In this document: piece after piece, positions 7,899-14,734 of the stretch
How positions within the stretch are numbered: position 1 is the first letter of the stretch
How the letters are laid out: each line of letters starts with the position of its first letter
Source of the DNA: a virus
Length of the DNA stretch: 20,600 bases
IMG/VR virus record: IMGVR_UViG_3300042298_002298
Coordinates: 1-20,600 of that record
Reading direction: 5' to 3' (one strand)
Notes under the pieces: model-generated
The model's input: only the letters and a program-made list of their open reading frames with translations
The model's database searches: none
What the model was told of the DNA's origin: nothing
Made by a program: the position numbers and the translations under genes

Positions 7899-7940
7899 TG
7901 TGCATTCTGCCCTTGTTTTACCGTGTAATTGCTAATCTTT

Positions 7941-7961
7941 GATCATGTATAGACCATGATC
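7941..7961. promoter_or_regulatory. Operator-like perfect dyad GATCATG-N7-CATGATC
   Basis: GATCATG (7941-7947) and CATGATC (7955-7961) are perfect inverted repeats around TATAGAC. A related GATCATG recurs at 8071. Dyads of this size in a divergent promoter region usually bind a dimeric repressor. No repressor gene is identified in the window, so the ligand is unknown. Confidence 0.55.
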
Positions 7962-8100
7962 GCTCACCGAATCCTACCTTTTGGACTGTTTAACCGCAAA
8001 CTAAATTCGACCGAAAATCAGTGGCTTAGGTAATCTGTGGTCGTGTAAACGAAAAAAGTTGTAGACAAGTGATCATGAAATCGAATGTAATACGAACCAC

Positions 8101-8198
8101 GCGGCCCCCAGACAGCCGCAGCCGGTAGGCGAATAAGAGAGGTTCTGGTGCCGGATGAGCGCAAGCAGCCCGGCGGTTCCCACAAGGGGAATCCGGCC
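8101..8198 (+). ncRNA. Hairpin-rich region, possible structured leader RNA
   Basis: Three consecutive stems can form: GCGGC/GCCGC (8101-8105, 8115-8119); GCCGG/CCGGC (8150-8154, 8170-8174) containing an inner GC-GCAA-GC with a GNRA tetraloop; and TTCCC/GGGAA (8177-8181, 8187-8191) extended by GG/CC across a one-base bulge. I do not recognise a known riboswitch or sRNA. It lies upstream of the first rightward gene, so it could be a leader structure or a short RNA. Confidence 0.35.
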
Positions 8199-8302
8199 TA
8201 AAGCAGCGGTGTAGTCGTAGGGTTGAAGACGATGACCGACATCTCGCGAGTCGCCCGACAATGTGACGCTGCCCAATCTACCGGGAAGCCTTGATTCAGT
8301 AG

Positions 8303-8346
8303 AGCGCATTCACTGAGTGCGCTGCACTGAGTCAACCAACACTGAG
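8303..8346 (+). repeat. Iterated CACTGAG repeats and inverted repeat before first rightward gene
   Basis: CACTGAG occurs at 8311, 8325 and 8340, 14 and 15 bases apart; the first two extend to CACTGAGT. AGCGCA (8303-8308) and TGCGCT (8318-8323) form a stem around the first copy. The spacing is more than one helical turn, so binding by a tandem repressor or activator on nearly the same helix face is plausible. Confidence 0.55.
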
Positions 8347-8355
8347 GACACGACA

Positions 8356-8586
8356 ATGCGAATCGAACTGAACGCCGATGAACTTCTGAAGATCGCCATC
8401 GCCCTGAACAACGAGAGCATTCGACTGCTCGACCAACACGGTCAACTGCCTGAACTTTCGCCAGAACAAGACGAGGTTTGGAACAAGTACTTGGCGGTTT
8501 CGGGACTAGATCGAAAGGTTTCGGAAGCCTACCGCAAGGCCGACAAAAAGGAACGTCTGGAGCGTTCCTACCCCAAGGTTGCCTAA
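8356..8586 (+). CDS. Small unknown protein, 76 aa
   Basis: First gene of the rightward block. From ATG 8356, chosen because GAGGA lies 7 bases upstream, it encodes MRIELNADELLKIAIALNNES and a second charged helical region ending KKERLERSYPKVA. It is soluble, mostly alpha-helical and strongly charged; no motif is recognised. Its stop codon TAA is immediately followed by the first hammerhead ribozyme, so the message 3' end may be made by self-cleavage 26 bases beyond the stop. Early phage genes in this position often target host functions, but that is only positional inference. Confidence 0.75.
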   Translation: MRIELNADELLKIAIALNNESIRLLDQHGQLPELSPEQDEVWNKYLAVSGLDRKVSEAYRKADKKERLERSYPKVA

Positions 8587-8588
8587 CA

Positions 8589-8640
8589 GGTCGAAACCGC
8601 CGCGAGGCGGTCTGGCAGTCACGCTGCCACTGATGAGACC
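8589..8640 (+). ncRNA. Type II hammerhead ribozyme 1
   Basis: A complete self-cleaving hammerhead open at stem II. Stem II is GGTC (8589-8592) with GACC (8637-8640). The GAA core is 8593-8595, and A 8596 pairs with T 8611 as the A15.1-U16.1 pair. Stem III pairs ACCGCC (8596-8601) with GGCGGT (8606-8611) under a GCGA tetraloop. The cleavage nucleotide is C 8612 of GTC. Stem I pairs TGGCAG (8613-8618) with CTGCCA (8624-8629) around a 5-base loop. The core CTGATGA is 8630-8636. All invariant core bases are present. Type II hammerheads are known from bacterial and phage DNA. It starts right after the stop codon of the previous gene. Confidence 0.93.
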
Positions 8641-8659
8641 AACAACACTGGAGAGCAGC

Positions 8660-8824
8660 ATGAAAATCATTCTCGTCGCTTGTTTCCAATATCTCGCCAT
8701 GATCCAGATGGCCCTTGGCGTTCTGATCGTCGCCGAGTCTGGCGGTGTCGGCATCCCCTCGCTGATCGCGGTAGCAGCCGCGCTCGTTTGCCTTTTCTCA
8801 GCCAATGAGGTGTCCAAGTCATGA
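8660..8824 (+). CDS. Small membrane protein, 54 aa
   Basis: Starts at ATG 8660 behind GGAGAGCAGC. The sequence is MKIILVACFQYLAMIQMALGV followed by a short polar turn (AESGGVG) and a second hydrophobic stretch (PSLIAVAAALVCLFSANE), so two membrane helices are predicted with the ends in the cytoplasm. Function is unknown; size and topology resemble small phage inner-membrane proteins. It is the first of the three genes lying between the two hammerhead ribozymes and overlaps the next gene by ATGA. Confidence 0.72.
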   Translation: MKIILVACFQYLAMIQMALGVLIVAESGGVGIPSLIAVAAALVCLFSANEVSKS

Positions 8825-9066
8825 ACAGCGTCAAGCAGTACCCACCCGCGCACTTGCATGGTCAGGCCATGAGCATTCAGGTCGAACAGCGCCATGTCTA
8901 CGGGCAGATCAAGTACTACCCGCTCAACGAACTGGCATCACGCTTCGCAACCCTGATGAAGCAGAAGACGTTCGATGCCCAGAACCTTGAGGACATTCGC
9001 CGCATGGGTGTCGAGATCGACGTGCGAGTCCCCGGTTATTCCAACGATTATCTGGTCAGCATTTAA
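8821..9066 (+). CDS. Small unknown protein, 81 aa
   Basis: Begins at an ATG overlapping the previous stop (ATGA), indicating coupled translation. The protein (MNSVKQYPPAHLHGQAMSIQ... RHVYGQIKYYPLNELASRFATLMKQKTFDAQNLEDIRRMGVEIDVRV) has a beta-rich N-terminal half and a helical middle, with no transmembrane segment or recognised motif. The TAA stop codon is part of an ATTTAAAC octamer (9061-9068), which therefore sits just upstream of the next ribosome site. Second of the three genes between the ribozymes. Confidence 0.72.
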   Translation: MNSVKQYPPAHLHGQAMSIQVEQRHVYGQIKYYPLNELASRFATLMKQKTFDAQNLEDIRRMGVEIDVRVPGYSNDYLVSI

Positions 9067-9081
9067 ACGCAGGAGAAAATC

Positions 9082-9321
9082 ATGATCAAGTTGAGCGTAC
9101 CCAGACAGATGTACGAGACCCTTGAACTTGACTCGTCAAGAGTCCGCAACGGCTACAGCATGATCAACGAGGGCGGCTACACGTTCAGCGCCCCCGTAGA
9201 CGGTTGGAGACGGGCCATCGATACCTATCGCCTTCTCAGTTGGGAAGCGCCAGAGGAACAGGTGGAATCGTGCGTTCGCAAGGTCGAACAGTGGATCGCG
9301 TATCACGAGGCCGTTGAGTAA
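9082..9321 (+). CDS. Small unknown protein, 79 aa
   Basis: ATG 9082 follows AGGAGAA at good spacing. The protein (MIKLSVPRQMYETLELDSSR... WRRAIDTYRLLSWEAPEEQVESCVRKVEQWIAYHEAVE) is soluble with an amphipathic C-terminal half rich in Trp and Glu. No family is recognised. Its TAA stop is followed directly by CAGGTCGAAAC, the start of the second hammerhead, exactly the same junction as after the gene ending at 8586. Last gene before the ribozyme and the next promoter. Confidence 0.73.
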   Translation: MIKLSVPRQMYETLELDSSRVRNGYSMINEGGYTFSAPVDGWRRAIDTYRLLSWEAPEEQVESCVRKVEQWIAYHEAVE

Positions 9322-9323
9322 CA

Positions 9324-9402
9324 GGTCGAAACATCCCGCGCCTTCGGGCTTGATCGCCAACAGGCCGGGATGTCATGCCGTCATGCGGCATCTGACGAGA
9401 CC
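9324..9402 (+). ncRNA. Type II hammerhead ribozyme 2
   Basis: Same architecture as the element at 8589 but with a longer stem III. Stem II is GGTC (9324-9327) with GACC (9399-9402). GAA is 9328-9330. Stem III pairs 9331-9338 with 9366-9373 (8 bp, A 9331 opposite T 9373) and is capped by a 27-base apical part that can fold further (GCC/GGC). Cleavage base is C 9374. Stem I pairs ATGCCG (9375-9380) with CGGCAT (9386-9391) around TCATG. The core CTGACGA is 9392-9398. Stem I and III sequences differ from copy 1 while pairing is kept, i.e. compensatory variation, strong evidence for a functional fold. A promoter begins 17 bases later, so this ribozyme likely defines the 3' end of the first rightward operon. 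Confidence 0.93.
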
Positions 9403-9419
9403 GTCACCGTTTACACAAG

Positions 9420-9449
9420 TTGACTGCGACACAACGCAGCGTTTATACT
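9420..9449 (+). promoter_or_regulatory. Sigma-70-like promoter for the SprT-MoxR operon
   Basis: TTGACT (9420-9425), an 18-base spacer and TATACT (9444-9449). A GTTTACAC octamer (9409-9416) lies just upstream of the -35 box. The leader TTCGCAACAT followed by GGAGAACAG closely matches the one after the promoter at 11882, suggesting a shared promoter-leader module. Confidence 0.75.
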
Positions 9450-9482
9450 TCGCAACATACCGACAACATGGAGAACAGAATC

Positions 9483-10094
9483 ATGGTCAAATTCAACGAA
9501 CGCGAATCATGGCTTGCCGCCGCTGCAGTCATGCTGCAGCACGAGATTTTCCCCCTCGCCGGTATCGATCCGGTGTCATGGGAGCAGCGCAAGTATCGGG
9601 TCGCTTGCGGCTTCCCGATTGGCTATCGCGGCTCGCGCACCGGCAAGGTGACCTTGGGCCAAGCCTTCGACCCGTCGATCTCTGCAGACGGCACGTTCGA
9701 AGTGTTCATCAACCCGATTCTCGACAAGCCGGTCGATGTCATTGCGGTTGAGGCCCATGAACTGGCCCATGTCTGGGCCGGTATTCAGTGCGGCCATCGC
9801 GGCGAGTTCGCCCGTGTCTGCCGCGCCATTGGTCTGCAAGGCCCAATGACCGCAACGGTTCCCGGTGTCGAACTGCGCGGCAAGTTGGAGCGCATCGTCG
9901 ATCAACTGGGTGCGTACCCGCATGCCAAGGTTGACCCGAATGCCCGTAAAAAGCAGGGCACCCGCTTGCTGAAACTGCAGTGCGGTTCCTGCAACTGGAC
10001 GGCTCGTGTCTCTGCCCTGCAAGCGCACCGTTTACACGCTGCCTCGGCTTGCCCGGTTTGCAGCAGCATCAACTCACTCAACGTGGAGGGCTGA
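9483..10094 (+). CDS. SprT-like zinc metalloprotease-family protein
   Basis: 203 aa from ATG 9483, chosen because GGAG lies 9 bases upstream (an ATG at 9468 overlaps that site). Residues ~85-115 read EAHELAHVWAGIQCGHRGEF: HELAH is the HExxH zinc motif and the later His gives the third ligand, as in SprT/Spartan-type proteins. The C-terminus has a zinc ribbon, LQCGSCNW ... CPVC. SprT-like proteins cleave DNA-bound proteins or act in DNA repair; phage copies are common but poorly understood. It is followed 2 bases later by the MoxR-type ATPase, in one operon. GTTTACAC at 10030 is encoded as Arg-Leu-His with a TTA Leu codon. Confidence 0.83.
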   Translation: MVKFNERESWLAAAAVMLQHEIFPLAGIDPVSWEQRKYRVACGFPIGYRGSRTGKVTLGQAFDPSISADGTFEVFINPILDKPVDVIAVEAHELAHVWAGIQCGHRGEFARVCRAIGLQGPMTATVPGVELRGKLERIVDQLGAYPHAKVDPNARKKQGTRLLKLQCGSCNWTARVSALQAHRLHAASACPVCSSINSLNVEG

Positions 10095-10096
10095 TC

Positions 10097-11101
10097 ATGT
10101 CCAAGCGTACCTTCTCGCTCCCGCTGTCTGACAGCGACCGCTCGTACCTGAAAATGCATGCCGTGCGACAGGGCAAGTCGCCCAACGCACCGGACGATGT
10201 CCTGCTGTCGATCTGGAACGGGGTTGATCCTGCCCCGGTTCCTGCTGCGGCTCTGGATGCTGAGACCATCGAATCGATCCGCAAGGATGCCGTCGCTGCC
10301 GCTGTCGCTGCAGTCGAACAGCACCGCCCGGTTCGCATCGAAATCAAGCAGGGCGCTGAGATCAAAGTCCTGCCGAATGGTCACCGTCACCCGGTGTTTC
10401 CGGATGTACTGGCCTCGCTGTCCGTTCGCGAGAACGTCTATCTTGTCGGCCCTGCCGGTTCCGGTAAGACGACCCTCGCCTCGCAGTGTGCCGAAGCACT
10501 GGGCTTGCCGTTCTACAGCACTGGCGCTGTCGGCATGGCGTACCAGTTGCAGGGATTCATCAACGCCGAAGGCAAGTACATGGAGACTGACCTGTACCGC
10601 GCCTATGTGAACGGCGGCGTGTTCCTGTTCGATGAGATCGATGCCTCATCCGCACAGGCGCTGTTGGCCTTCAACGCGATTGCGGCCAATGACCTCGCTG
10701 CATTCCCGTGCGGCACGGTTAAACGCCATCCGGACTTCGTGATCATTGCCGCTGCGAACACTTGGGGTTCCGGTGCTGATGCCCAGTATGTGGGCCGCGC
10801 TCAACTCGACGCAGCCACACTCGACCGTTTCGCGTTCATCAGCATGGACTATGACGAGAAGTTGGAACTTGCCATCTCGCCCAATGACGAGTGGACGCGC
10901 TACGTTCAGGCATTCCGTCGCGCTGTCCGCGAGTTGAAGATTCGTGCGGTGGTTTCGCCTCGCGCATCGATCAAGGGCGGCAAGTTACTCAGCGCCGGTC
11001 TCAAGTGGGATCGCGTCGAGGAAATGCTTTTGCTGCGCGGCATGTCGCGCAATGACATCGACAAGATTCGCGAACAACTTCCTGCGAGGAAAGCAGCATG
11101 A
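10097..11101 (+). CDS. MoxR/CbbQ-type AAA+ ATPase
   Basis: 334 aa from ATG 10097, preceded by GGAGG at good spacing. The N-terminal ~110 residues are a helical, Ala-rich extension. The AAA+ module follows: Walker A GPAGSGKTTL near residue 120, Walker B GGVFLFDEIDAS near residue 175, sensor 1 AAANTWG near 215, and an arginine finger region LDAATLDRF near 240. The pore-like segment GAVGMAYQLQGF matches MoxR/CbbQ ATPases, which remodel or activate partner proteins, often ones with VWA domains. The downstream gene overlaps by 4 bases (ATGA) and is its likely partner. ACGGTTAAACG occurs within at 10715-10725. Confidence 0.9.
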   Translation: MSKRTFSLPLSDSDRSYLKMHAVRQGKSPNAPDDVLLSIWNGVDPAPVPAAALDAETIESIRKDAVAAAVAAVEQHRPVRIEIKQGAEIKVLPNGHRHPVFPDVLASLSVRENVYLVGPAGSGKTTLASQCAEALGLPFYSTGAVGMAYQLQGFINAEGKYMETDLYRAYVNGGVFLFDEIDASSAQALLAFNAIAANDLAAFPCGTVKRHPDFVIIAAANTWGSGADAQYVGRAQLDAATLDRFAFISMDYDEKLELAISPNDEWTRYVQAFRRAVRELKIRAVVSPRASIKGGKLLSAGLKWDRVEEMLLLRGMSRNDIDKIREQLPARKAA

Positions 11102-11877
11102 TTTACCGCTACAACGCTGACAGTTGGGATGAGTTCATCAACGACCTTCGCACCCGCAAAATCCACTGGCATGCCGATGGTTCAGAGTCCACGGGCAATC
11201 CAGAATGGTCTGGCTGCGAGGATTGGGATCAGGCCATGCGCTACGCTGTCACCGGCCATGCCGTTGCCCGTGCTGCCATGGAATCGGTCGCGGTCAAGGT
11301 GACCTCAGCACCGGAGCCGTTGTGGGATGTCGCCCCGGTGGGCGCGTTCCCCTGCATCCCGGCCTACGCTGCAGGGATTCCCGAAGACATGTTCGTCGCG
11401 ACCGATGACGCACCGCCTGTGTCGCAGCCGATTGTGCGGATCGCGGTCAACATGTCGGCCAATGCCAGTATCGATGCACAGGAGATCGTCAATCGCGGTG
11501 CGGCGCTCGTCACCCTGATCGACCGCATCCAGTTGAGCGGTCGTCGCGTGGAACTGATCGCCCTCAAGCACGGCTACTCTGGTGACAACAAGTTCGTCTG
11601 GAGCGTGACGGTTAAACGTCCTGAGGAGCCGGTCGATATGGATCGGATCGGTCTTGCCTTCGCGACCCCGATCATGCTGCGGCGGTTCTTCTTTCGGGTC
11701 ATGGAGTTCACTGTTCCGCATCGCGTCAGCGGCTACGGTTACTCGACGCACTTCAAAGACGAGTGCAACGACTTCCACCTCACCATCCCGGTGATCAGTG
11801 GCGGCGAGTACGCGACACCGGAACGTGCGAACCGCACCGTGCAGCAACTCTGGGAGAGGGCGGCGATTGCCGCCTGA
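11098..11877 (+). CDS. Partner protein of the MoxR-type ATPase (VWA-like?), 259 aa
   Basis: Starts with ATGA overlap to the ATPase gene. The first ~60 residues contain DSWDEFINDLRTRKIHW and a GCEDWDQAMRYAVTGH segment. A linker rich in Pro follows. From residue ~118, IVRIAVNMSANASIDAQEIVNRGAALVTLIDRIQLSGRRVELIAL resembles the first beta-alpha-beta of VWA-like folds and an uncharacterised phage family usually paired with MoxR ATPases (possibly DUF7192). The classic MIDAS DxSxS is replaced by NMSAN, so metal binding may be lost. Function is inferred from pairing: a substrate or effector switched by the ATPase. It ends just before the next promoter. Confidence 0.78.
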   Translation: MIYRYNADSWDEFINDLRTRKIHWHADGSESTGNPEWSGCEDWDQAMRYAVTGHAVARAAMESVAVKVTSAPEPLWDVAPVGAFPCIPAYAAGIPEDMFVATDDAPPVSQPIVRIAVNMSANASIDAQEIVNRGAALVTLIDRIQLSGRRVELIALKHGYSGDNKFVWSVTVKRPEEPVDMDRIGLAFATPIMLRRFFFRVMEFTVPHRVSGYGYSTHFKDECNDFHLTIPVISGGEYATPERANRTVQQLWERAAIAA

Positions 11878-11881
11878 CCCC

Positions 11882-11910
11882 TTGCACACTAACATCTAAA
11901 CAACTATACT
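11882..11910 (+). promoter_or_regulatory. Sigma-70-like promoter for the small-gene operon
   Basis: TTGCAC (11882-11887), a 17-base spacer and TATACT (11905-11910), about 27 bases before ATG 11938. The leader TTCACAACAT and GGAGAACAG match the promoter region at 9420. It overlaps only the last bases after the preceding stop codon. Confidence 0.78.
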
Positions 11911-11937
11911 TCACAACATTAGAACAGGAGAACAGAC

Positions 11938-12147
11938 ATGAGCCGTAAAATCGCCGTGATCTTAAACGAAGAACAGATTCGCTATCTCTGGGGTCACGCT
12001 ATTGAGATGGAAGACAAGGCAAAAGATGCGGGTCGCTCACATTCAGAGCGATTCTTTATTGAAATGCAGGAAGCACTCTTCAACGCAGAAGAGGACGCAA
12101 AGTTGGAGCGCGAGACTGAACTCAATTACGAGCGAGGTGCAGCATGA
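11938..12147 (+). CDS. Small unknown protein, 69 aa
   Basis: First gene after the promoter, ATG behind AGGAGAACAG. A soluble helical protein (VILNEEQIRYLWGHAIEMEDKAKDAG ... FFIEMQEALFNAEEDAKLERETELNYERGAA), acidic, no recognised motif. Its last codons encode RGAA within CGAGGTGCAGCATGA, which is both the ribosome site and the stop/start overlap for the next gene. The same 15-base junction recurs at the next gene boundary. Confidence 0.75.
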   Translation: MSRKIAVILNEEQIRYLWGHAIEMEDKAKDAGRSHSERFFIEMQEALFNAEEDAKLERETELNYERGAA

Positions 12148-12407
12148 ACGTCTCAGGCGTGACTGGATACATTCTGGATGAGGCCGAGGACACCGTGAAG
12201 CATCGCGGTCATGTGATTGACCTGACCTACGACTCGCTGACGTTGGTGGGCACGATGCAGCAACGCAAGACGCTGTTGTTTTTGACCAAGGCAGAAATAA
12301 TCACAGCGCCTTTCAAGTTCATCAAGTTTGAAGGGCATGAGGCTCTAGAGGCCGCGAAAGAATACATCGACGAGCAACTGCAGATTGACCAACGAGGTGC
12401 AGCATGA
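12144..12407 (+). CDS. Small unknown protein, 87 aa
   Basis: Coupled to the previous gene by ATGA overlap. Predicted mostly beta in the first two thirds (VTGYILDEAEDTVKHRGHVIDLTYDSLTLVGTMQQRKTLLFLTKAEIITAPFKFIKF) and a C-terminal helix (ALEAAKEYIDEQLQIDQRGAA). No signal peptide or membrane helix. Again ends in RGAA encoded by CGAGGTGCAGCATGA. No family recognised. Confidence 0.75.
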   Translation: MNVSGVTGYILDEAEDTVKHRGHVIDLTYDSLTLVGTMQQRKTLLFLTKAEIITAPFKFIKFEGHEALEAAKEYIDEQLQIDQRGAA

Positions 12408-12601
12408 TTCCTGAAACCATGAACGCTAGTGATATCGCATCAGCACTTGATGGTCTTCGCGCCAAGCGCAAGGCCGAGTCTGCGGACATGGCAATCGTCA
12501 TGGGACTTGCACTGGCATCGCACTTGGATGCCATTGGCATGAGCCGTGAGGCCGGTGAGGTTGAGGCAATCGTCAGTCGTGTTCTGGCGGCTGCAGCATG
12601 A
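12404..12601 (+). CDS. Small helical protein, 65 aa
   Basis: ATGA overlap with the gene before and the gene after. Sequence MIPETMNASDIASALDGLRAKRKAESADMAIVMGLALASHLDAIGMSREAGEVEAIVSRVLAAAA is almost wholly alpha-helical and Ala-rich. One moderately hydrophobic stretch (AIVMGLALASHL) is too short and polar for a clear membrane helix. A GAGG ribosome site lies in the preceding coding end. Function unknown. Confidence 0.7.
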   Translation: MIPETMNASDIASALDGLRAKRKAESADMAIVMGLALASHLDAIGMSREAGEVEAIVSRVLAAAA

Positions 12602-12798
12602 AGCGCGGCACGGTCTTCGAACACAAGCACTGGCTCGACAACAAGAACATGCCGCTGCTGTGCTATGTGACCTGTACGAGGGGCGGTTTGATTTACTACA
12701 CCGACTGGAACCCAGAGGGTGAGCAGTCAAACGGCAAGTGGTGGTTCGACTCAAAGGATTTAAACAAGTACGTTGGCAAAGTCTTGGAGGCAGCATGA
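12598..12798 (+). CDS. Small unknown protein, 66 aa
   Basis: Starts at ATG 12598 overlapping the previous stop. The protein (MKRGTVFEHKHWLDNKNMPLLCYVTCTRGGLIYYTDWNPEGEQSNGKWWFDSKDLNKYVGKVLEAA) is aromatic-rich and predicted beta-rich, resembling small SH3-like or OB-like folds common in phage, though no family is recognised. Codons for Asp-Leu-Asn near the end contain ATTTAAAC (12758-12765) with a TTA Leu codon. Confidence 0.74.
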   Translation: MKRGTVFEHKHWLDNKNMPLLCYVTCTRGGLIYYTDWNPEGEQSNGKWWFDSKDLNKYVGKVLEAA

Positions 12799-13001
12799 AA
12801 AAGTATGCAGTCCACAACACGGGTGAATGGGTGCGCGGTGCTGATGGTTCGTCCATGCGTGATGACCCGTCAGTGCATGAGTACGATTCGCTAGATGACA
12901 TGCATCCCTTCGACCGCAAGCAGTTCGAATGGATGCTCGACAACGGTCACATCGTGATCACCATGGGCGAGACCGTGTACCAGATACGGAGGGACGAGTA
13001 A
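12795..13001 (+). CDS. Small unknown protein, 68 aa
   Basis: ATG 12795 overlaps the previous stop (GGAGGCAGCATGA gives the ribosome site). An acidic protein: MKKYAVHNTGEWVRGADGSSMRDDP, then YDSLDDMHPFDRKQFEWMLDNGHIVITMGETVYQIRRDE. The end (HIVITMGETVYQIRR) looks like a beta hairpin. No motif recognised. Its TAA stop overlaps a 31-aa membrane ORF start (TAATG). Confidence 0.72.
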   Translation: MKKYAVHNTGEWVRGADGSSMRDDPSVHEYDSLDDMHPFDRKQFEWMLDNGHIVITMGETVYQIRRDE

Positions 13002-13096
13002 TGACTTGGGAACTGTTCTGGTTTGCGCTACCGCGCATGTTGTTATTGATCCCGATGTTTTACATTGCATGGAGGGTTGCGACATGGCAGGAATGA
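13001..13096 (+). CDS. Very small single-pass membrane protein, 31 aa
   Basis: An ATG at 13001 shares its A with the preceding TAA stop and opens a 31-codon frame ending TGA at 13096. The peptide MTWELFWFALPRMLLLIPMF then YIAWRVATWQE is a strongly hydrophobic helix with Trp at both ends and Arg inside the C-terminal side. It continues into the start of the next gene in another frame (13-base overlap). It would fill an otherwise unused 80-base gap in a region where genes are packed without gaps, which supports it being real. Role unknown; phage membrane peptides of this size occur among lysis and host-control genes. Confidence 0.55.
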   Translation: MTWELFWFALPRMLLLIPMFYIAWRVATWQE

Positions 13097-13278
13097 CTGA
13101 CCCCTACGTTGAGCAACTGGATGCTGAGTACCGCATGCTGAAGGTGGAACTAGAACGCGAGGTCAACAAGTTTGAATTGCTTCGGAAGCAGTACAACATG
13201 CGGACTCGACAACTGACCGATGACATCACCCGCAAATGGTTTGAAGTACAACGAGCAAAGCAGGAGAGCAGAGCATGA
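13084..13278 (+). CDS. Small coiled-coil protein, 64 aa
   Basis: ATG 13084 follows GGAGG at 13071-13075. The protein MAGMTDPYVEQLDAEYRMLKVELEREVNKFELLRKQYNMRTRQLTDDITRKWFEVQRAKQESRA is one continuous charged helix with a heptad-like pattern, suggesting a coiled coil. No known family. Overlaps the next gene start by ATGA. Confidence 0.72.
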   Translation: MAGMTDPYVEQLDAEYRMLKVELEREVNKFELLRKQYNMRTRQLTDDITRKWFEVQRAKQESRA

Positions 13279-13478
13279 ACCTTTCAGATATCGAATACTT
13301 GGAGCGCGAGGTCAAAGGTCTTCGACTTGATCCCGCTATTGCATACGCGATCATGCGGATACAACATGACCTGTCGAAGATGATGGAAAAGATTGATCGC
13401 ATTGACTCCGCACTGGCCGAGCATCAAAACCAGTTATGGGGTGGCGAGGAAGATGAACCAAACGGCCCACCGTTCTGA
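13275..13478 (+). CDS. Small helical protein, 67 aa
   Basis: Starts in ATGA overlap behind AGGAGAGCAGAGC. MNLSDIEYLEREVKGLRLDPAIAYAIMRIQHDLSKMMEKIDRIDSALAEHQNQLWGGEEDEPNGPPF: helices followed by an acidic disordered tail. No motif known. The stop TGA is directly followed by GG and an ATTTAAAC octamer before the next start. Confidence 0.72.
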   Translation: MNLSDIEYLEREVKGLRLDPAIAYAIMRIQHDLSKMMEKIDRIDSALAEHQNQLWGGEEDEPNGPPF

Positions 13479-13490
13479 GGTATTTAAACA

Positions 13491-13820
13491 ATGAACAACA
13501 GATTCTTTTTGAACCCGCAAGACGGGGAGATTTATCCAGAGTCTTGGTATCACCAACAGAACATCGATCTGGCTTGTGCCATCGAAGCAGTGACGATTGA
13601 GGGTGGACTCGCCTTCGATATTGTCCCTGAGAACTTGGAGCGCATGGAGTTTGCTGACGTAGCCGTGATCAGCCTGATCGCGGACTTCGCAAGGACTCTG
13701 GCGATCCGCGCCATGGAAACAGATGACGCAGAGGAGGCAGAGCAATGCGGATCAGTGGCGGCTTATGTGTCCCGAATCATGATGGACAAATTGTCGAACG
13801 CACCGATGACCAAGCACTGA
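13491..13820 (+). CDS. Unknown protein, 109 aa
   Basis: ATG 13491 is preceded by TGAGG and then an ATTTAAAC octamer (13482-13489) that occupies the spacer between ribosome site and start. The protein (MNNRFFLNPQDGEIYPESWYHQQNIDLACAIEAVTIEGGLAFDIVPENLERMEFADVAVISLIADFARTLAIRAMETDDAEEAEQ ...) is acidic and mostly helical after residue 25. No family is recognised. Its last 76 bases overlap the next gene in another frame, and since that gene has its own good ribosome site both appear to be used. Confidence 0.72.
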   Translation: MNNRFFLNPQDGEIYPESWYHQQNIDLACAIEAVTIEGGLAFDIVPENLERMEFADVAVISLIADFARTLAIRAMETDDAEEAEQCGSVAAYVSRIMMDKLSNAPMTKH

Positions 13821-13993
13821 CCTTCGCAGATTCGGACGGGAACCCCATGGTCTGGGTGTTCCCATGTCCGGGTCGCATCTGGAAGGATCGATGGGTCGCA
13901 TTCACCCACGGCGAAGCGTTTAAATACTGGAAAGGTTCCCGTGAAGAATGCATTGATTGGGCAAATAGTTTTACCAGAGGAGTGATAGCATGA
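13745..13993 (+). CDS. Unknown protein, 82 aa, overlapping its upstream neighbour
   Basis: ATG 13745 lies 11 bases after GGAGG in the preceding gene. The first ~25 residues lie in the overlap; the rest (ALTFADSDGNPMVWVFPCPGRIWKDRWVAFTHGEAFKYWKGSREECIDWANSF) is a convincing globular, Trp-rich sequence. An internal ATG at 13847 could start a shorter form, but it lacks a clear ribosome site. GTTTAAAT in the Phe-Lys codons (13918-13925). Function unknown. Confidence 0.65.
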   Translation: MRISGGLCVPNHDGQIVERTDDQALTFADSDGNPMVWVFPCPGRIWKDRWVAFTHGEAFKYWKGSREECIDWANSFTRGVIA

Positions 13994-14178
13994 AGAAGTT
14001 GATTCTGTTGATGGCTGCGTTAGTGGCGAGTGCTTCGGCTCATGCAGGTACAGCGTACCTGACTGGCGAGAAGGTTACTGGCATGACAAAGCAGTGCTTC
14101 TATGATTACCTTGGCAGTGAGTACACTCGGACTATCCGAGCGCACGAACTCTGTCCGTTGAGTATCCGAGTACGTTAA
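13990..14178 (+). CDS. Small secreted protein with signal peptide, 62 aa
   Basis: MKKLILLMAALVASASAHAG is a textbook Sec signal peptide with basic N-region, hydrophobic core and cleavage likely after AHA at residue 19. The ~43-aa mature part (GTAYLTGEKVTGMTKQCFYDYLGSEYTRTIRAHELCPLSIRVR) has two cysteines that could form a disulphide in the periplasm. Similar tiny periplasmic proteins are seen in phage genomes; function unknown, with host envelope modification or exclusion as possibilities. Last gene of the operon, overlapping its neighbour by ATGA and followed 60 bases on by a strong terminator. Confidence 0.75.
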   Translation: MKKLILLMAALVASASAHAGTAYLTGEKVTGMTKQCFYDYLGSEYTRTIRAHELCPLSIRVR

Positions 14179-14237
14179 AGTAATCCACCCTAGTCGCTGT
14201 CCAATCCCGTCAGTGCAAGACGGCGGCAAAGGAAGAG

Positions 14238-14271
14238 ACCCCGGCCTCCTTGAGAGCGCCGGGGTTTTTTT
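14238..14271 (+). terminator. Rho-independent terminator of the small-gene operon
   Basis: ACCCCGGC (14238-14245) pairs perfectly with GCCGGGGT (14258-14265) around a 12-base loop and is followed by seven Ts. It ends rightward transcription facing the leftward gene whose stop codon lies within the T tract. A small CCGTC/GACGG hairpin (14207-14211, 14219-14223) precedes it. Confidence 0.9.
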
Positions 14272-14734
14272 ATTTCAGTTCGTACCATTGCAGCAATGAT
14301 GGATCGATAGCATACGCATCGTAAGTTTCGTTGCGTTCGTAATCCTGCTGAGACACCACTGTCCACTGCCGACAGGTTTTGATTACGTCCACCACCGCAG
14401 TGCAGGAATGATCCCCGCTCACCAAAAAGAACACGTCGGGCTTCTTCGCAGCACGGTCATACGACCACTTGCTGCAGACCAGTGCGTAAGGGAATGGCCA
14501 CTTGCCCATCTCAAACTTACGCCTGAGTCCCTTCACCTCGCAACGCTTCCCGTTGACGATCAAATCCCCCTCGTCCGCATGCTCCAAACGATCTTCCCAT
14601 TTCAGTCGCAGATGTTTCTCTTGCAACTTCACCTCGTTGCCGCGACTCAGCAGCCAAACAGCCACGACCATCTCAGTCTTATGACTTTGTTTAAACCGTT
14701 CGATGAACGACTCATCCCAGTCTTGGCTGCTCAT
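14270..14734 (-). CDS. PD-(D/E)XK nuclease-like protein, 154 aa
   Basis: A small nuclease-fold candidate. Residues ~20-35 read KTEMVVAVWLLSRGNEV, matching the first helix (with Glu) of PD-(D/E)XK folds, and residues ~54-70 read DEGDLIVNGKRCEVKGLRR, matching the GDL...EVKG active-site pair (Asp and Glu-x-Lys). Such proteins cut DNA, for example Holliday-junction or restriction-like enzymes. It is coupled by an ATGA overlap to the primase-helicase gene, so a role in replication or recombination is likely. No specific family is named; the fold call rests on motif spacing only. Confidence 0.72.
   Translation of the reverse strand: MSSQDWDESFIERFKQSHKTEMVVAVWLLSRGNEVKLQEKHLRLKWEDRLEHADEGDLIVNGKRCEVKGLRRKFEMGKWPFPYALVCSKWSYDRAAKKPDVFFLVSGDHSCTAVVDVIKTCRQWTVVSQQDYERNETYDAYAIDPSLLQWYELK

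Follow-up and report, generated by a model that had tools for sequence, protein, structure and literature searches.

The closest described systems are bacterial and phage hammerhead ribozymes of type II (PMC3088659; RF02276). Those clustered in prophages cleave in vitro and in E. coli, and transcript processing was proposed as their function (Perreault 2011, PMC3088659). What hammerheads do in the genomes of phages and bacteria is still called open in a 2017 review (PMC6155905). The locus described here resembles these ribozymes in the core, in the permutation that leaves stem II open and in its phage or prophage location, and also in that several copies flank single genes or short gene blocks (PMC3088659). 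Its two ribozymes, HH1 and HH2, feature a 4-bp stem II, a 17-nt stem-loop I and a one-pair tertiary contact, whereas the RF02276 type has a stem II of 2-3 bp and a pseudoknot formed by loop I with the 3' tail. The sTRSV (type III) and Schistosoma (type I) hammerheads share a conserved A-U contact in which an A at the end of the stem II loop, next to the helix, forms a Hoogsteen pair with U1.7 (PMC2553840). The contact A of those ribozymes lies inside the stem II loop while in the subtype found here, which has no such loop, it is the base before stem II and is often in or next to a stop codon.

The window is a stretch of 20,600 nucleotides of viral DNA (IMG/VR record IMGVR_UViG_3300042298_002298, positions 1 to 20,600). 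Genes for portal, terminase and primase/helicase proteins in the window support the phage operon setting given in a preliminary description made from the sequence alone. HH1 and HH2 bracket a block of three small genes and are likely to be cis-cleaving elements that punctuate and process a polycistronic phage mRNA between small-gene cassettes that can be exchanged. The relevant features are the following:

8356..8586, + strand: upstream ORF of 76 aa, ending in TAA 8584-8586, two bases before HH1
8588, + strand: A11.5 of HH1, directly before stem II; predicted to form a tertiary contact with U1.7 (8619)
8589..8640, + strand: HH1, type II hammerhead ribozyme (sequence reading, covariation, MFE fold, subtype covariance model)
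8589-8592 GGTC / 8637-8640 GACC, + strand: stem II of HH1, 4 bp, open
8593-8595 GAA and 8630-8636 CTGATGA, + strand: core of HH1, read directly
8596-8601 / 8606-8611: stem III of HH1 (A15.1 8596, CCGCC 8597-8601, GGCGG 8606-8610, U16.1 8611)
8602-8605 GCGA, + strand: GNRA loop on stem III of HH1
8612, + strand: C17 of HH1, cleavage expected between C8612 and U8613
8613-8618 TGGCAG / 8624-8629 CTGCCA, + strand: stem I of HH1, loop TCACG 8619-8623
8660..9321, + strand: block of three small genes (8660-8824, 8821-9066, 9082-9321) bracketed by HH1 and HH2
9324..9402, + strand: HH2, the other type II hammerhead ribozyme; its stem III is longer and its core is CTGACGA at 9392-9398
9420..9449, + strand: sigma-70-like promoter TTGACT-18-TATACT, downstream of HH2
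9483..10094, + strand: gene of a SprT-like protein (name as in phage records), next after HH2 and used as anchor for finding relatives

The upstream ORF and the three small genes have no Pfam or PHROG match. Comparison of the window DNA with named phages gave no near-identical DNA, and a distant 60-base search returned only short, chance-level matches. A non-coding stretch between divergent genes (8060-8340) lies ahead of the first gene of the operon. It is conserved at about 74-90% in some 25 relatives, some of them without ribozymes, and its consensus fold shows both-side changes in 10 of 54 predicted pairs and one optional domain. This stretch has no Rfam match and is a candidate for an undescribed structured RNA.

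The sequence of HH1 makes up a full type II hammerhead ribozyme, with cleavage predicted after C8612. All invariant bases, the GUC triplet and the three stems that the preliminary description reported were found base for base at 8589-8640, and direct reading likewise gives the GNRA-capped stem III, the 4-bp open stem II and the start two bases past a stop codon (TAA 8584-8586) that it had listed. The NUH cleavage triplet is present with its A15.1-U16.1 pair (A8596-U8611, C8612), and both HH1 and HH2 carry the hammerhead core CUGANGA and GAA. Minimum-energy folding returns precisely the hammerhead (-24.0 kcal/mol, z -2.75), and both sequence and fold show the type II permutation, with stem II open and stems I and III closed by loops. 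A mechanical three-stem detector gave no match in 4.16 Mb of order-1 Markov sequence. The lack of any covariance-model match, named beforehand as one half of the evidence that would count against the ribozyme, holds at the Rfam gathering score, but the Rfam model describes a different, pseudoknotted subtype; a model of the subtype, built from 69 copies of which HH1 is one, does match HH1 with 76.3 bits (E 2.7e-21 in the window). That the message cut by HH1 is an early one, as was also proposed, is only plausible.

HH2, which was absent from the preliminary description, starts two bases past TAA 9319-9321 and its predicted cut lies between C9374 and 9375. The opening TAACAGGTCGAAAC, as at HH1, recurs at 9319-9332 and belongs to HH2. 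The subtype covariance model scores HH2 with 26.1 bits (E 4.8e-6), with stem III misaligned. The long stem III was considered as a special domain and this idea was discarded, as the stem folds into an extended helix interrupted by an internal loop. When flanks are included (30 nt for HH1), the mean pairing probability of stem II drops to 0.25 in HH1 and to about 0 in HH2; since alternative folds compete for stem II in both, ribozyme activity may depend on context. Pairing is also possible between the HH2 core and the tail downstream of it (9393-9406, UGACG AGAC CGUCA). The resulting hairpin would block the ribozyme and was considered as a conserved switch, but its tail is kept in most, not all, close orthologues. 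The promoter-like site at 9420-9449 is the best of 5 such sites in 7900-14400, where 3.3 are expected by chance, and is conserved in relatives together with HH2.

Comparative evidence comes from pattern scans of IMG/VR, which matched at least 120 stretches and in which the mechanical detector identified 272 distinct copies among the matches listed. The collecting patterns fix the core, so that core conservation is not independent evidence, and the copies are related, so that their counts are not independent events. In an alignment of 68 distinct members of the subtype, compensatory changes occur in all three stems, and the covariation score of 0.700 (0.129 in shuffles, none of 500 reaching the observed value) lends support to the earlier reading of a type II hammerhead predicted to be cut after C8612. 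In all, 95.3% of cells are paired, compared to at most 42% in slid controls; for the stem cells the figure is 100%, and 13 of the 16 stem pairs vary, all 13 with both-side changes.

A tertiary contact between stem I and stem II is predicted for the subtype from the covariation of base 11.5, the one before stem II, with base 1.7, the first of loop I. These bases are complementary in 217 of 224 copies among the matches listed. Base 11.5 is nearly always A in the subtype with a 4-bp, loopless stem II. A scan of IMG/VR for copies with a non-A base before GGTC gave a single contig, whose copy has A at 1.7. The covariation was then tested prospectively by a scan conditioned on non-U at 1.7, pooled with the earlier copies: a U at 1.7 goes with A11.5 (192/192 of the copies listed), an A with U11.5 (24/31) and a C with G11.5 (1/1). 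This A-U to U-A swap fits either a Watson-Crick-type pair or two alternative geometries. Across the subtype, every loop I with a final U is accompanied by an A behind stem II (24/24), and where stem II is followed by U, loop I ends in A in 29 of 32 copies, suggesting that the last base of loop I and the base after stem II possibly form a second tertiary pair.

Rfam at its gathering scores finds nothing in the window. At a loose threshold RF02276 (Hammerhead_II) matches HH1 with 29 bits (gathering score 37; E 0.01 for 7.5 kb, 6.6e-6 against its own record) and does not match HH2. None of the copies with a 4-bp stem II in 12 scanned loci reaches the gathering score of this model, and the two matches that do in these loci are both in L140. 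The sub-threshold score of HH1 and the missing HH2 result from the model describing a form with a shorter stem II, of 2 bp in its consensus, and a pseudoknot. The collected copies separate into two groups. In the first, which includes HH1 and HH2, stem II has 4 bp and stem-loop I 17 nt; in the second, stem II has 2-3 bp and loop I is longer and pairs with the 3' tail. A loop I-tail pseudoknot was also considered for the first group and rejected: its complementarity is at the level of swapped tails, unlike in the long-loop group. HH1 and HH2 are assigned from their sequences to a sister subtype defined by the 4-bp stem II, the 17-nt stem-loop I and the absence of the pseudoknot. This subtype is common in IMG/VR, with up to about ten copies per contig. 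Three single viral contigs, L118 (G005), L140 (G009) and L131 (G006), carry 9-11 hammerhead matches. Gut Gastranaerophilales contigs (L386, L387, L395, L396 and others) carry pairs of the same subtype about 350-390 nt apart in many genomes. By eye, the gene that follows the second L396 copy resembles Mor, which hints at Mu-like prophages.

The position of HH1 and HH2 behind a stop codon is common in the subtype. The end of the stop lies at -3 to +2 of the first stem II base in 166 of 261 A11.5 copies, among the matches listed, and in 16 of 23 U11.5 copies, 13 of them at +2. When pooled, about 64% of 284 copies have the end of the stop within three bases of stem II or overlapping it, while random positions of the same loci fall in the -3 to +2 range in 21 of 1189 cases (1.8%). 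Because stops cluster at the stem II edge, the tertiary-contact base is often part of the stop codon or close to it. This arrangement could simply reflect compact packing, a structured RNA that must sit outside coding sequence being placed directly behind the stop without functional coupling, an explanation whose probability we set just short of even and which is compatible with processing of the mRNA. The gap on the 3' side just fits a ribosome-binding site (ribozyme to next start: median 21 nt, 10th percentile 13 nt) and some ORFs do enter the ribozyme. However, the stop side is tight even where there is room downstream, as at HH2, where the next ATG is 80 nt away. Judging by general ribosome footprints, a ribosome at termination would sit over both stem II and the GAA core, which opens an alternative in which cleavage is gated by translation: the stop codon abuts or overlaps the ribozyme's 5' edge, so the ribosome would cover stem II, G12-A14 and the contact base, the cut would occur only if the upstream gene is not translated to its end, and the ribozyme would sense translation termination. 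The tight spacing persists with downstream gaps of 41-80 nt (18/31) and where no start is found within 260 nt (13/18), UAG overlaps the ribozyme by 1 base in 42 A11.5 copies and by 2 bases in 12 of 24 U11.5 copies, and ORFs enter it by more than 5 nt in just 22 of 297 cases. Against such gating, spacing peaks at -2, 0, +1 and +2 with no single fixed register, and becomes looser beyond a gap of 80 nt (4/16), as mere closeness would give; we regard it as unlikely.

Relatives found around the SprT-like gene carry 0-4 ribozymes each, and sequence comparison places the changes in their gene content exactly at the ribozyme edges. In three of them (L234, L235, L240) HH2 and the 60 bases downstream are 95-100% identical to the window and the 60 bases upstream 28-65% identical (random 60-mers: median 35, 95th percentile 60); a different gene precedes HH2 and homology starts at A11.5. 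Homology is limited to the ribozyme on both sides in L265. In L236 and L263 a gene homologous to the one before HH1 also has a ribozyme behind it at an equal offset, but with different stems and different next genes. In other relatives the gene that follows HH1 is present with the ribozyme absent or decayed. Such breaks, and homologous upstream genes followed by ribozymes with different stems, would also be produced if the conserved GGTCGAAAC and CTGANGAGACC blocks served mainly as short shared sequences for cassette exchange, cleavage being secondary. Recombination alone requires neither the strict compensation in stems I and III nor the covariation of a distant tertiary pair, and we doubt that it is the main role. 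Some relatives (L457, L462) have decayed ribozymes or none, showing that the ribozymes are not essential. The decayed copies would fit hammerhead-like hairpins that lost activity or arose by chance, but all core bases are intact in HH1 and HH2, the E-value of HH1 is far from chance and HH2 orthologues are intact in several relatives, making this explanation very improbable for the window.

The stop-adjacent position, the gene-exchange joints and the structured ends expected from cleavage have their simplest reading in the processing of a long message into cassette-sized mRNAs. On transcription, HH1 and HH2 would each fold and cut once, after C8612 and after C9374, respectively. Elements of the type II form follow one another as stem II strand, hairpin III, cut, hairpin I, core and stem II strand, an order that would place the cut site between two complete hairpins, leaving structured ends on both products. 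The upstream mRNA would retain its stop codon and end in hairpin III with a 2',3'-cyclic phosphate, while the downstream mRNA would have a 5'-OH and hairpin I first. Every cassette would form its own mRNA unit, with structure at both ends and insulation from the adjoining units. End protection and insulation are effects generally expected of structured mRNA ends. RiboJ-type insulators, in which the sTRSV hammerhead and a hairpin are placed in synthetic 5' UTRs, give the downstream mRNA a 5'-OH and a 5' hairpin, the same downstream product as predicted for HH1 and HH2. The latter, unlike RiboJ, are natural, of type II and positioned behind a preceding gene, the upstream mRNA also being left with a predicted 3' hairpin. 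Structure, conservation, stop-codon position and gene-content breaks at the ribozyme edges are observed features of this system, from which we infer cleavage by HH1 and HH2 in the cell, end protection and insulation.

Ribozymes of the HH1 kind were already known. The stop-codon and cassette-joint regularities are new relative to the open-licence papers searched, in which no description of them was found, an earlier description elsewhere being possible. As the subtype is missed by the current Rfam model at threshold, annotations based on this model underestimate how abundant it is. Gating by translation termination would be the most interesting extension of the processing reading. In the broadest and rather doubtful form of this idea, phages would widely use a device that fuses the stop codon to the hammerhead's 5' edge; ribosome and ribozyme would compete for shared bases and the cutting of the operon would depend on termination, the ribozyme being also a standard cassette joint. 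The contact with the stop codon, the hairpin on each product and the change of gene content at the edges turn the role of hammerheads in phages and bacteria into concrete tests within a small phage operon.
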